The notes under the pieces: model-generated | Seen by the model: only the letters and a program-made list of their open reading frames with translations | Database searches by the model: none | Told to the model about the DNA's origin: nothing | Program-made: the position numbers and the translations under genes | Assembly (NCBI GenBank): GCA_024687845.1 | Contig: JAILEL010000245.1 | Span: forward strand, 1-16,673 | Direction: 5' to 3' | Source: Eubacterium sp. | GTDB lineage: Bacteria; Bacillota_A; Clostridia; Lachnospirales; Lachnospiraceae | DNA length: 16,673 bases | Part shown: one piece after another, positions 1-4,892 of the stretch | Layout: every line of letters begins with the position of its first letter | Position numbering within the stretch: the first letter of the stretch is position 1

Positions 1-146
1 CTCTTGATTCCACACACGTCTTACAGGTTTTATTAAGCAAGCTTATAAAATCTGCAGACGGTGTTCTACTGCCTCCTTGCGGAGGCAATAAATCGTGTAT
101 TCTGAGTTACTGCTTCGCAGTTACGATAAGAACTATGAATAGTAAC
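1..146. repeat. Hairpin-rich intergenic repeat, right part (cut by window start)
   Basis: This gene-free stretch is a chain of palindromes ending in the motif ATGAATAGTAAC (135-146). Visible stems are: a long imperfect hairpin at about 14-64 (outer arms ACACGTCT 14-21 and AGAC-G-GTGT 56-64, apex TTAAGC-AA-GCTTA around 34-45); TGCCTCC-TTGC-GGAGGCA at 70-87; and ACTGC-TTC-GCAGT at 109-121. It shares TTAAGCAAGCTTA (reverse complement), GGAGGCAATA and the GAATAGTAAC end with the complete composite element at 3282-3564, so I take it as another member whose left end lies before the window. From 147 to 298, the leader of the next gene, I see no other gene and no confident promoter. Confidence 0.7.
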
Positions 147-298: not shown

Positions 299-1639
299 AT
301 GGGTTTTAGCAAAGATTTTATGTGGGGAGCTGCAACTGCGTCTTATCAGATAGAGGGTGCGTATGACGAAGATGGCAAGGGACTTGGAATCTGGGATGTG
401 ACTGCAAAGCCTGAGGGGCTTATTAGACATCGTGAAAATGGAAATGTTGCCTGCGACCATTATCATAGATATAAAGACGATATAAAGCTTTTCAAACAGC
501 TGGGAATAAAGTATTACAGATTTTCTATCAGCTGGCCGAGAGTGATTCCTGATGGGACGGGGGAGGTGAATCCTAAGGGACTGAAGTTCTACAGCGATTT
601 AGTTGATGAGCTTCTTGCTGCTGGGATAACACCTATGGTTACGCTTTTCCACTGGGATATTCCATATGAGCTATATCTTAAAGGTGCTTACGGTAATCCT
701 GACTTTCCTGACTGGTTTGAAAATTATACTAAGGTAGTGGTGGATGCACTGTCTGATAGAGTAAAGTACTGGATAACATTTAACGAACCACAGTGCTTTA
801 TAGGAAATGGATATTGGTATGGCGGACATGCTCCATTCCAGAAATGCGATAATAGAACTGTTTTAAGAATGATTCATAATTATCTGCTTGCTCATGGCAA
901 GTCGGTAAGATGCATTAGAAAAAATGCTAAGCTTGAACCGATTATTGGTTTTGCGCCGATCGGACCTGCAAGAATTCCTGCATCTGATTCACCAGAAGAT
1001 ATAGAAAAGGCGAGAAAAGATACATTTTCACTTAATGACATGTTTTTCTCTCTGGCAATTTATTCAGATCCTATAATGCTTGGCAGATATCCTGATGATG
1101 CTTATGAGGTTTTTGGTGATGATATGGTAGTTCCTGCTGAAGGAGATATGGAACTTATTTCAGAACCGATAGATTTCTATGGCATGAACATCTATTATTC
1201 ATCTGCTGATTATGTTGAAAATGGATACTGTGCTAATGAGTATCAGGGCGTTCCAAGAACTGCCATTGGCTGGGTGATCGATCCTAAGGTAATGTACTGG
1301 TCATCGAAGTTTATGTACGAGCGTTACAACAAGCCGGTTCTTATTACTGAAAATGGAATAGCAGTGAATGATGTTATTTCCCTGGATGGAAAATGTCATG
1401 ATCCTCAGAGAATAGACTATATCCAGAGATATCTGAGAGAGTATAGAAGAGCAGCTGAGGAAGGTATACCAATTATGGGATATATGTACTGGTCTGCTAT
1501 GGATAATTTCGAATGGGCTCAAGGCTATGACATGAGATTTGGACTTATCCACGTTAATTATCAGACACAGGAGAGAATAATCAAGGATTCAGGTTACTGG
1601 TATAAGACAGTAATTGAAAGTAATGGTGAAAAGATATAG
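299..1639 (+). CDS. GH1 family beta-glucosidase
   Basis: A 446-residue glycoside hydrolase family 1 enzyme, the usual length for the family, expected to hydrolyse beta-1,4-linked glucosides such as cellobiose by a retaining mechanism. The N-terminal GH1 signature (FMWGAATASYQIEGA) is present, as is the acid/base motif TFNEP (Glu163) and the nucleophile motif ITENG (Glu351). The NFEWAQGY segment near residue 405 resembles true beta-glucosidases rather than 6-phospho-glucosidases, so uptake of unphosphorylated sugar is likely. There is no signal peptide, so it should be cytoplasmic. The start is supported by GAAAGG nine bases upstream. It appears to be a single-gene unit closed by a terminator at 1694-1723. 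The exact substrate (beta-glucoside, galactoside or fucoside) cannot be told from sequence alone. Confidence 0.93.
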   Translation: MGFSKDFMWGAATASYQIEGAYDEDGKGLGIWDVTAKPEGLIRHRENGNVACDHYHRYKDDIKLFKQLGIKYYRFSISWPRVIPDGTGEVNPKGLKFYSDLVDELLAAGITPMVTLFHWDIPYELYLKGAYGNPDFPDWFENYTKVVVDALSDRVKYWITFNEPQCFIGNGYWYGGHAPFQKCDNRTVLRMIHNYLLAHGKSVRCIRKNAKLEPIIGFAPIGPARIPASDSPEDIEKARKDTFSLNDMFFSLAIYSDPIMLGRYPDDAYEVFGDDMVVPAEGDMELISEPIDFYGMNIYYSSADYVENGYCANEYQGVPRTAIGWVIDPKVMYWSSKFMYERYNKPVLITENGIAVNDVISLDGKCHDPQRIDYIQRYLREYRRAAEEGIPIMGYMYWSAMDNFEWAQGYDMRFGLIHVNYQTQERIIKDSGYWYKTVIESNGEKI

Positions 1640-1669
1640 TTACTTATCTCATGAACTGTGAATAGTAAC
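1639..1669 (+). repeat. 31-bp GTTACT...AGTAAC element, compact form
   Basis: This element begins on the last base of the GH1 stop codon. It has 6-bp inverted ends GTTACT (1639-1644) and AGTAAC (1664-1669), with ATCTCATGA and ACTGTGAAT between them. Its reverse complement is found at 3224-3254 with one mismatch in 31 bases, and its two halves flank the long composite element at 3282-3564. It is oriented toward nrdR and lies 34 bp before that gene's proposed -35 box. Confidence 0.8.
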
Positions 1670-2899: not shown

Positions 2900-3181
2900 T
2901 CACTCCCATGCGTGATCTTCTTCGATTACATGAAAATCCAGATAATCGAATTCAATAGCTTCTACAAAATTATCTTTTCCGAATCTTGTTCGGGCATGCT
3001 TTATGAATTCGGTTTTATTACTGTCGAGCCAGATTGGAACAGCCAGATCGAATTCCGTGCAGAGCATTTCTAAAGCTTTATAAACCTTAGCTGTTCTTGA
3101 CATTTCTTTACCTTCAAGGCAGATTACCTTATCCTTTAATAGGTGATTTTCGCTGATTACTTTTCCCCAGACTCTGAACAT
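2900..3181 (-). CDS. Small conserved-looking protein of unknown function
   Basis: A 93-residue acidic soluble protein beginning MFRVWGKVISENHLLKD and ending FDYLDFHVIEEDHAWE. I recognise the type as a small hypothetical seen in Lachnospiraceae but cannot name a domain. It has no signal peptide, membrane segment or metal motif; the many charged residues and aromatic C-terminus suggest a compact cytosolic fold. The start at 3181 is chosen because AGGAG (3193-3197) precedes it at a fitting distance; the longer frame to 3256 would begin inside the repeat element at 3224-3254 and has no ribosome binding site. It is convergent with yigZ with no bases between the two stop codons. Confidence 0.72.
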   Translation of the reverse strand: MFRVWGKVISENHLLKDKVICLEGKEMSRTAKVYKALEMLCTEFDLAVPIWLDSNKTEFIKHARTRFGKDNFVEAIEFDYLDFHVIEEDHAWE

Positions 3182-3223
3182 ATTATTATTTTCTCCTAAA
3201 CTTATATTTTTTGCAATATTTTT

Positions 3224-3254
3224 GTTACTATTCACAGTACATGAGATAAGTAAC
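3224..3254 (-). repeat. 31-bp GTTACT...AGTAAC element, second compact copy
   Basis: The reverse complement of the element at 1639-1669 with a single mismatch (30 of 31 identical), with the same GTTACT/AGTAAC ends. It lies in the leader of the minus-strand gene that starts at 3181 and points toward it. Its right half also pairs with the start of the composite element next to it: CATGAGATAAGT (3240-3251) with ACTTATCTCATG (3286-3297), extended by AACAAAAA / TTTTTGTTT, gives a roughly 20-bp stem with one bulge at 3240-3297. Confidence 0.82.
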
Positions 3255-3281
3255 AAAAATGACTGCTTGCAGGCACTTTTT

Positions 3282-3564
3282 GTTTACTTATCTCATGATA
3301 CCTGTGAAGCAGGAACTCAAAAAGCATGATTCAGTGCCTCAGCACCAGCTCTCGATTCGCAGAATAGAGAGTCCTCAGCATAGCTGAGGATGCGTTCTGC
3401 ATAGCAGTACCAATACTTGCTATGCAAGTATTGCATATCACGAAGTGATATGGCACAAGGAGGCAATAGAACATCGAATATTAGGCTTATTTAAGCTTGC
3501 TTAAGAATAAGCCATATTCGATGTGGACTTAAGAATGCTTTTTGAGTTAACTGTGAATAGTAAC
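3282..3564 (+). repeat. Composite palindromic intergenic element (31-bp element split by a hairpin cassette)
   Basis: The ends match the two halves of the 31-bp element: GTTTACTTATCTCATGA (3282-3298) and AACTGTGAATAGTAAC (3549-3564). Between them are, in order: a direct-repeat copy CTGTGAA (3302-3308, partner 3551-3557); a perfect 14-bp inverted repeat (3314-3327 with 3535-3548, AACTCAAAAAGCAT and its complement); and inside it stems GTGC/GCAC (3334-3345), CTCT..ATTC-GCA-GAAT..AGAG (3349-3371), CCTCAGC-ATA-GCTGAGG (3373-3389), CTGC-ATA-GCAG (3397-3407), CAATACTTGC-TAT-GCAAGTATTG (3411-3433), CATATCAC-GAA-GTGATATG (3434-3452) and a 54-nt hairpin (3471-3524). No ORF of note or ribosome binding site is seen. 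This and the copy at 3224-3254 account for most of the gene-free stretch 3182-3631. Confidence 0.82.
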
Positions 3565-3631: not shown

Positions 3632-4771
3632 TTATTCTTCGGTTGTTCCAAAGTCATCAACCATTTCACCAGCTTCAGCGTCTGTTGCTGTGCCTTCAAC
3701 TGGAACTGCATTTTCATATACAAAATCAGTTACCTTGTTGTAGAGAACTTCATAATAGAAGTCATCATCCTGATATCCATAGGTTTTCTTAAGTGTCTCT
3801 ATATCAGAGATACCTGACTGATCCATGAGCTCCTGCTTCTTTGCTTCAACCTCTTCGTCCTTAACTTCGATTGACTCTGCCTCAGCAATTGCTACCATGA
3901 TCATTCTTTCACGAATGAAATCTTCAACACTCTCCTGAACCTGATTCTTAAATGTTTCTTCATCGTAACCAAAATTGGAAAGGTATGCTGAAAGATCCAT
4001 GCCATTTGACTCAGCTGCCTCAGTTACACCGCTGATCATATAATCAACTCGTGCTTTAACAACTGCTTCTGGATATTCAGATACTGTACTACTATCCTTA
4101 ACCTTCTGAATCACTGCATTTTTATCAGTTGAAAGGTCTGACTCAGCAGCCTCTTCCTCAAGATGAGTTCTTGTAGCTGCTTCAAAATCCTTTGTTGTCT
4201 GATAATCTGTTGCTGATGCGATAAGAGCATTATCATACTTTGGCGCATTTTTCTTAACTATATAGTTAAGCGTAGTCTTAAATAATGCATCTTTTCCAGC
4301 AAGTGTTTCACTGCCGTAATCATCAGGGAAAGTAACATTTACTTCAAATTCATCACCTGGCTTATGACCACTTATCTGCTCTTCAAAATCATCAATGAAG
4401 CTGTGGCTTCCAAGAGTAAGGTCATAACCTGCACCCTGTGAATCTCCACCTTCAAAGGCTTCACCATCAACATATCCTACAAAGTCAATGTTAACTGCAT
4501 CACCCATTGTAGCGGTGCCCTCTTTAACCTGTTCCTCTTTAGTATTGTCTTCAATAAGACTATCAATCTCAGCCTGAATGTCTTCATCAGTTACTTCAGT
4601 TTTTGATGGTGTATATTCAACACCCTTATAGGTACCAAGTGTTACGTATTTTGCAAAATTCTCCTTCTGTTCTTTGATTGAAGAAGTTTCTTCAGTCTTC
4701 TTTCCGCAACCACCTAAAACGGAAAGAATCATAACGCCTATAAGCACTGCGCTAATCTTTCTGCTTCTCAT
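3632..4771 (-). CDS. Trigger-factor-like lipoprotein (peptidyl-prolyl isomerase)
   Basis: A 379-residue protein with a lipoprotein signal: MRSRK, a hydrophobic stretch, then the lipobox LGGC with Cys22 as the predicted lipidated residue. An FKBP-type isomerase domain occupies about residues 89-172 (DAVNIDFVGYVDGEAFEGG onward), followed by a helical region like the C-terminal arm domain of trigger factor (about 180-350) and an acidic tail. The N-terminal ribosome-binding domain of true trigger factor is missing and replaced by the signal, so it should act outside the membrane as a folding catalyst or chaperone for exported proteins, broadly like PrsA. This role is inference. AAGGA (4779-4783) precedes the start. 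It sits downstream of, and co-directional with, the phosphoesterase gene. Confidence 0.88.
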   Translation of the reverse strand: MRSRKISAVLIGVMILSVLGGCGKKTEETSSIKEQKENFAKYVTLGTYKGVEYTPSKTEVTDEDIQAEIDSLIEDNTKEEQVKEGTATMGDAVNIDFVGYVDGEAFEGGDSQGAGYDLTLGSHSFIDDFEEQISGHKPGDEFEVNVTFPDDYGSETLAGKDALFKTTLNYIVKKNAPKYDNALIASATDYQTTKDFEAATRTHLEEEAAESDLSTDKNAVIQKVKDSSTVSEYPEAVVKARVDYMISGVTEAAESNGMDLSAYLSNFGYDEETFKNQVQESVEDFIRERMIMVAIAEAESIEVKDEEVEAKKQELMDQSGISDIETLKKTYGYQDDDFYYEVLYNKVTDFVYENAVPVEGTATDAEAGEMVDDFGTTEE

Positions 4772-4873: not shown

Positions 4874-4887
4874 GTTACTATTTGCGG
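4874..4887 (-). repeat. Single copy of the AATAGTAAC intergenic motif
   Basis: On the minus strand this reads CCGCAAATAGTAAC, followed by AAAAG, a degenerate copy of the right end of the 31-bp element. It lies six bases past the stop of the phosphoesterase gene, about 29 bp before the proposed promoter of the trigger-factor-like gene, and points toward that gene. Confidence 0.5.
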
Positions 4888-4892
4888 TTAAT

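Follow-up and report, generated by a model that had tools for sequence, protein, structure and literature searches.

A gene-less, probably mobile element (MITE) with a conserved branched interior in many genomes of one Clostridia family

Results

The element and its setting

The window, by which we mean the whole 16,673-nucleotide stretch of DNA analysed, holds three copies of one element: a long copy at 3224-3564, a compact copy at 1639-1669 and a cut copy at its left edge. On one side of the long copy is a trigger-factor-like gene (3632-4771, minus strand), on the other a small minus-strand ORF that follows this gene, and a TTG-started ORF (2900-3256, minus strand) extends into its left end. 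The cut copy (1-146, minus strand) is incomplete, its remainder lying beyond the window start; its end part at 106-146, with the terminal inverted repeat GTTACTATTCATAGTT, is recognised both by its fold and by the covariance model (CM) described below (E=9.2e-5). It stands upstream of an ORF at 299-1639, which by eye we take to be a glycosidase, and the compact copy shares its first base with the end of that ORF's stop codon. Elsewhere in the window, a decayed copy of the end motif with three mismatches (4874-4889, minus strand; GTTACTATTTGCGGTT on the plus strand) sits near the start of the trigger-factor-like gene, where the model gives no significant match (E=2.4). A hairpin with a 9-bp stem, AAAACTGCC..GGCAGTTTT, at 2849-2871 falls within the 3' end of an ORF at 2282-2899 and is possibly a terminator overlapping the coding end.

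A preliminary description of this DNA had been built around a 31-bp repeat, and the features it listed are present. In the orientation of that repeat, there is an exact match at 1639-1669 (plus strand) and another with one mismatch at 3224-3254 (minus strand), two such matches being found in none of 200 shuffles. The two halves of the repeat are also found separately, at 3283-3298 (one mismatch) and at 3549-3564. Two copies of CTGTGAA (3302-3308 and 3551-3557), a perfect 14-bp inverted repeat (3314-3327/3535-3548) and a chain of hairpins are likewise found, and no gene lies inside, there being no ORF of at least 80 aa. The fold of the region is far more stable than chance, with z-scores of -9.8 as DNA and -8.8 and -8.6 for RNA of the two strands, and none of 200 shuffles was equally stable in any of these cases.

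We read these features as parts of a single, larger unit. Together, the segments 3224-3254 and 3283-3298 make up the left end and both arms of the first hairpin, so the element spans 3224-3564 (341 bp, plus strand), and in the minimum-energy fold its 15-bp terminal inverted repeats, GTTACTATTCACAGT, close a three-branched structure with 15 terminal pairs. The left repeat (3224-3238) is supported by the fold and the model, and the same ends pair in relatives; the right repeat, ACTGTGAATAGTAAC (3550-3564), is supported by motif match and fold. The first branch, P1 (3240-3297, element positions 17-74), is a long hairpin with the apical loop GCTTGC at element positions 42-47 (42-52 in relatives), and its arms comprise most of the 31-bp repeat, from 3240, together with one of the supposed split halves. 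P2 (3301-3313), the small hairpin CCTGTGAAGCAGG, is the source of one CTGTGAA and has the look of a right end repeated internally and decayed. P3 (3314-3548) is a 14-bp closing stem around several hairpins, namely five short ones (3348-3372, 3373-3389, 3394-3410, 3411-3433 and 3434-3452) and a second long GCTTGC hairpin (3471-3524), with positions counted from the minimum-energy fold string; all these parts are given on the plus strand.

Relatives in one clostridial family

We used the end motif AACTGTGAATAGTAAC, with at most one mismatch, to find relatives in 299 genomes of one clostridial family, which from the look of the genes we take to be Lachnospiraceae. The class, Clostridia, is that of the genome used as first centre, and many of the genomes are in small contigs. 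The motif occurs in 46 of the 299, with up to 167 copies per genome, while a reversed control never exceeded two per genome over the same set; in several genomes inverted pairs lie about 95-200 bp apart. The inverted ends of the elements are 14-15 bp long, GTTACTATTCACAG, and relatives with these ends are multicopy.

We aligned 16 full-length relatives drawn from nine genomes (G499, G273, G311, G483, G397, G336, G415, G386 and G300; six of them from G397 and three from G311). All have the same order of parts: end, P1, P2, P3, end. Their minimum-energy folds place GCTTGC in the P1 loop in 13 of the 16 and form a separate P2 hairpin in 12, P2 being absorbed into other pairs in G499, G397c, G397d and G415. 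The CM R1 was built from the left 99 positions of these 16 elements, with the window excluded, and it matches the window at 3224-3316 over its full length (model positions 1-99) with E=4.9e-11; the E-values of this model are rough, by the tool's own statement. At E<=1e-3 the model finds 48 of the 299 genomes, 27 of them at a best E<=1e-6; the nine model genomes are among the 48, and G390, which appears below, is not.

Three end scans of viral contigs returned 0, 9 and 11 stretches, and the 20 inspected were lone end-like words with no paired end, several being the same site in related contigs. The plasmid and phage records searched showed no similar DNA. In the accessible part of the open-access literature, four 14-mers of the end motif were not found and a 12-mer was listed for one plant paper. 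The nearest genomes found by a scan with the trigger-factor-like protein were distant relatives only (G284, at 52% identity, G314, G404 and G424), and the stretches taken from them, two of which were at contig ends, showed neither synteny nor a match to model R1.

Target duplications

Insertion was examined through the flanks of two-ended copies. In G390, whose copies are 131-187-bp forms, the 8-bp flanks of 11 two-ended copies match at 8/8 positions in seven and at 7/8 in four, and none of 110 mismatched flank pairs matches at seven or eight positions. Among 38 elements of other genomes, six match at 8/8 and four at 7/8, against 5 of 1406 control pairs. Counted as exact duplications over all 49 two-ended elements, 8 bp is duplicated in 13 (the 744-bp element L050 included), 7 bp in one and nothing in 35. 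Because the G390 forms and L050 match the model at their ends only, and not over P1-P2, their duplications speak for the ends more than for the folded form.

For the folded form itself, we turn to G499 and G539, where standard-size copies that are 91-98% identical stand at different sites. Private 8/8 duplications flank three of six such copies in G499 (L234, L237 and L238) and two of five in G539 (L228 and L231), which is good evidence for transposition in those genomes, as distinct from the window's host. Copies in G386 are 79-93% alike, with flank matches of 8/8 (L137), 7/8 (L241), 3/8 (L240) and 6/8 (L242); three copies in G374, 80-90% alike, match at 2, 2 and 5 of 8 positions. A comparison of filled and empty sites in the genus of G311 found no match in three other genomes.

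Further arrangements were seen. The inverted ends of L050 (582-1325, in G027) are long and start with GTTACCATTCACAG, its 8-bp duplication, AAAAATGA, is perfect, and G027 has another site where end motifs are spaced in the same way. Two elements, L221 (1501-1697) and L217 (1405-1599), have the ends GTAACTATTCAGAACC / GTAACAGTTCAGAACC, nearer to the end of ISDge4 (see below), a similar branched fold, and flanks matching at 7/8 and 8/8.

These data bear on how the window element is to be divided. The preliminary description had proposed a 250-bp hairpin cassette inserted into the 31-bp repeat, with CTGTGAA as a 7-bp target duplication. The 31-bp halves do flank 3299-3548 and CTGTGAA is found on both sides, but the boundaries of that insert are the border between P1 and P2 and the right end of the element, the model sets the element start at 3224, and full-length relatives lacking a split 31-bp repeat also have P2 (CTGYGAAGCAG or a variant). 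One copy of CTGTGAA belongs to the P2 hairpin and the other to the right terminal repeat, and the relatives instead duplicate 8 bp, outside their 14-15-bp ends. We regard a cassette of this kind as extremely improbable. What survives of the proposal is its broader suggestion of a mobile element, non-autonomous and MITE-like, to which the comparison adds that the structured interior is conserved; the cassette inside a repeat gives way to an element with its ends, by fold and model, at 3224 and 3564.

Size forms and modular build

Full forms of the family are about 190-200 bp long. Sizes in the window run to 31 and 341 bp, and relatives with an exact duplication range from 62 (L152, perfect duplication) to 199 bp. 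The enlarged forms, L218 (267 bp) and the long window copy, are both without a duplication, the flanks of the window copy matching at 2/8. Since it lacks a duplication, the long copy is either old or has had its flanks altered, and we describe it as an old, enlarged full form.

P1-only forms of about 97-98 bp with perfect duplications occur in G311 (L119/L187 and L191), where P1-side and P3-side partial copies are frequent; the P3-side copies examined are without duplication. Because these P1-only forms carry perfect duplications and P2 looks like an end (it resembles the right end, AACTGTGAA...), the comparison suggests that the full form may have come from two units joined at an internal end that has since decayed. 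Scored over 23 elements, P2 is the best internal match to an end in 14, ties in 5 and is worse in 4, which supports P2 as an internal end only modestly.

We take the compact copy (1639-1669, minus strand in the orientation of the model) to be a minimal form with GTTAC...GTAAC at its two borders. Model R1 finds it at E=0.0018, a score that rests on its ends only, since a nearly equal score (26.2 bits) is reached by the 31-bp end hairpins of G390. Its flanks, AAGATATA / AACATATA, match at 7/8, with a probability by chance of 0.0014 window-wide and 0.009 in AT-rich stretches. It might instead be a deletion remnant of a longer copy, and not a transposed mini-element, a reading to which we give somewhat less than an even chance. 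In its favour, the copy differs at a single position from the opening 31 bp of the long element, and partial forms are common in G311; against it stand GTTAC/GTAAC on both sides, the matching flanks, and the existence of a short form with a perfect duplication, the 62-bp L152. Other short forms of 36 and 37 bp (L031, L142 and L151) are without duplication (2/8 each). Many copies in G390 (L037, L044 and L045) begin with a perfect 31-bp hairpin, GTTACTATTCACAG TTC CTGTGAATAGTAAC, which consists of two opposed ends and equals the window's compact copy in length.

Conservation of the fold

Comparison of the 16 relatives shows a predicted three-branched interior (P1, P2 and P3) that is kept by compensatory changes despite differing stem sequences. 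Changes on both sides are found in 28 of 40 pairs; 89.9% of cells are paired, against 72.8% when shuffled; and covariation scores 0.464, compared with 0.185 for shuffles and no more than 0.144 with slid partners, the shuffle control keeping the relatedness among the 16 sequences. Stem 1, formed by the ends, hardly varies and has 97.1% of its cells paired, while the interior stems vary almost freely yet remain paired. An asymmetric 2x3 internal loop next to the apical stem is constant in the consensus fold, and the GCTTGC loop also stays in place.

Covariation could also appear without selection, if the arms of a quasi-palindrome were mutually corrected by template switching in replication, in which case any mobile palindrome would seem to covary. 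Here the stems are unusually long and near-perfect (P1 and the 97-bp forms) and their sequence is almost free to change, both of which fit such a process. Template switching should, however, erase asymmetric internal loops, and the 2x3 loop and GCTTGC loop remain; their constancy argues against its being the whole story, and we rate it as a rather unlikely source of the pattern.

Another possibility is that the family is primarily a conserved structured RNA (a regulator, mRNA stabiliser, or processing or termination element) whose carriage by a transposon is incidental, its fold being kept because the RNA works in host transcripts. The strong covariation, the recurrence of the GCTTGC loop in relatives and window and the constant asymmetric internal loop would all suit an RNA, and comparable transcribed MITE-like repeats, the bcr elements of Bacillus cereus, are described in the portion of the source consulted (PMC3446304). 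Against this, transposition alone explains the inverted ends and 8-bp duplications, and P3 and the element length vary freely. No Rfam match reached the gathering score in the window; matches to structured RNA families were sub-threshold only, and those to microRNAs were taken as chance matches to long hairpins. Twelve loci, ten of them with MITEs, had no Rfam match inside the elements, the two matches obtained (an S10 leader and a tRNA) both lying in flanks. We judge a primary role as RNA to be quite unlikely.

Candidate transposase

An IS66 transposase search in 18 MITE-bearing genomes gave a match in nine. Classical IS66 elements (L076 and L078) have a PF03050 transposase in common with the candidates below but were rejected as the source, with ends GTAAGCGTCAAAT in the two loci showing such ends, as against GTTACTATTCACAG.

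A diverged IS66-like group with GTTAC ends (L081, L093, L094, L098, L102 and L103) comes closer. L098 has the left end GTTACTATTCACA; L102 has the left end GTTACCATTCACAGC and an irregular right end, GCTGTGAATAGTGTAAC; and L103, whose transposase is IS66-like (PF03050), has the right end CTGTGAATGGTAAC with a subterminal hairpin. Model R1 matches the right end of the L103 element, subterminal hairpin included (L180, E=3.1e-4), while the left ends of L102 (E=0.12) and L098 (E=0.36) are close by letters, though neither match is significant. Transposases with GTTACTGTTCA ends (L081, L093 and L094) are related, but their ends are less close. All of these elements come from genomes other than the host, and an element with a transposase and both ends identical to those of the window copy was not seen.

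The transposases of L102 and L103 score 54 and 53.9 bits with PF03050 (cut-off 23.1). With the NCBIfam IS66 model NF033517 they score 151.3 and 154.6 bits, below its cut-off of 180, and L081, L102 and L103 all fall in the range 151-162 bits. The L103 query finds 1506 proteins at E<=1e-30 among 7999 candidates scored. A recognisable transposase turned up in few MITE-bearing genomes, 5 of 46 with one query and 3 of 397 at E<=1e-20 with another, and a scan of viral contigs for the IS66-like transposase found no relative. Upstream of the IS66-like transposase there is a small ORF of about 108-134 aa (L102 165-515, L098 2153-2557 and L103 129-452); the three are alike by eye, and that of L102 has no Pfam match above cut-off.

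Discussion

We conclude that 3224-3564 is very probably a non-autonomous DNA transposon, a MITE, of a family spread through many genomes of one Clostridia family, and that it is probably moved by a transposase of the IS66 superfamily. The grounds for the call are the CM match, the near-identical copies at different sites, the 8-bp duplications, the covarying stems and the similar IS66-like ends. In keeping with a MITE, the window copy is short and carries inverted repeats but no transposase gene.

The mover is probably an IS66/ISBst12-like enzyme, to judge from the ends. A DDE transposase of this superfamily (ISBst12-like, with GTTAC ends and 8-bp duplications) would act on the ends in trans and insert copies, here between genes, and the full form may have arisen where two units became joined at an internal end, now decayed. 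In the parts of the sources consulted, ISDge4 of the ISBst12 group has the end GTAACTGCTCAGCA and an 8-bp duplication (PMC12898284), and IS66 elements make 8-bp duplications (PMC3281130), as do the elements with the ends described here. The likeness to the ISBst12 group lies in an IS66-type DDE transposase in elements with similar ends, and, as far as those accounts extend, in relatives with ends of the form GT[A/T]ACT..TCA and 8-bp duplications. The window element differs in being gene-less, and L098, L102 and L103 in their small extra upstream ORF, descriptions of the ISBst12 group giving it one ORF only.

Among known MITEs, MITEPsy1 and MITECca01 are likewise short, lack a transposase gene and have inverted ends in common with an IS; in the sections of the reports consulted, MITEPsy1 is tied to IS5?, with 4-nt duplications, and MITECca01 to IS982 (PMC3189936, PMC9769881). 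The window family differs from both in that its branched fold is conserved while its sequence is not. The bcr1-bcr3 repeats of Bacillus cereus, on the accounts excerpted here, are also intergenic, MITE-like and often in transcripts, and bcr1 was scored as a conserved structure (PMC3446304, PMC6542083, PMC2267715). Those repeats are, according to the same excerpts, restricted to the B. cereus group, with a mobility tied to a TTTAT motif, as against 8-bp duplications with GTTAC ends in the window family.

The fold itself might belong to the mobility cycle or play into host regulation, with shape selected and sequence free to drift. For example, a transposase or host factor may recognise an extruded single strand or a transcript, and the element may be a modular three-way junction in which hairpin arms are gained and lost, from 31 to 341 bp in one window. 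We put this reading forward tentatively and think it unlikely.

As a rule, MITEs are identified from their ends, and what lies between tends to be seen as leftovers. In the present family, which bears marks of recent activity, compensatory change has held the interior to one particular branched shape in many genomes. Since a conserved interior fold and recent activity occur together, whether the fold is needed for mobility of the MITE, or serves the host, is directly testable, which makes this element well suited to asking why certain mobile elements retain a fold, with the IS66-like group with GTTAC ends supplying a candidate transposase. The family also cautions against taking hairpin-rich intergenic DNA of Clostridia for regulatory when it may be mobile.
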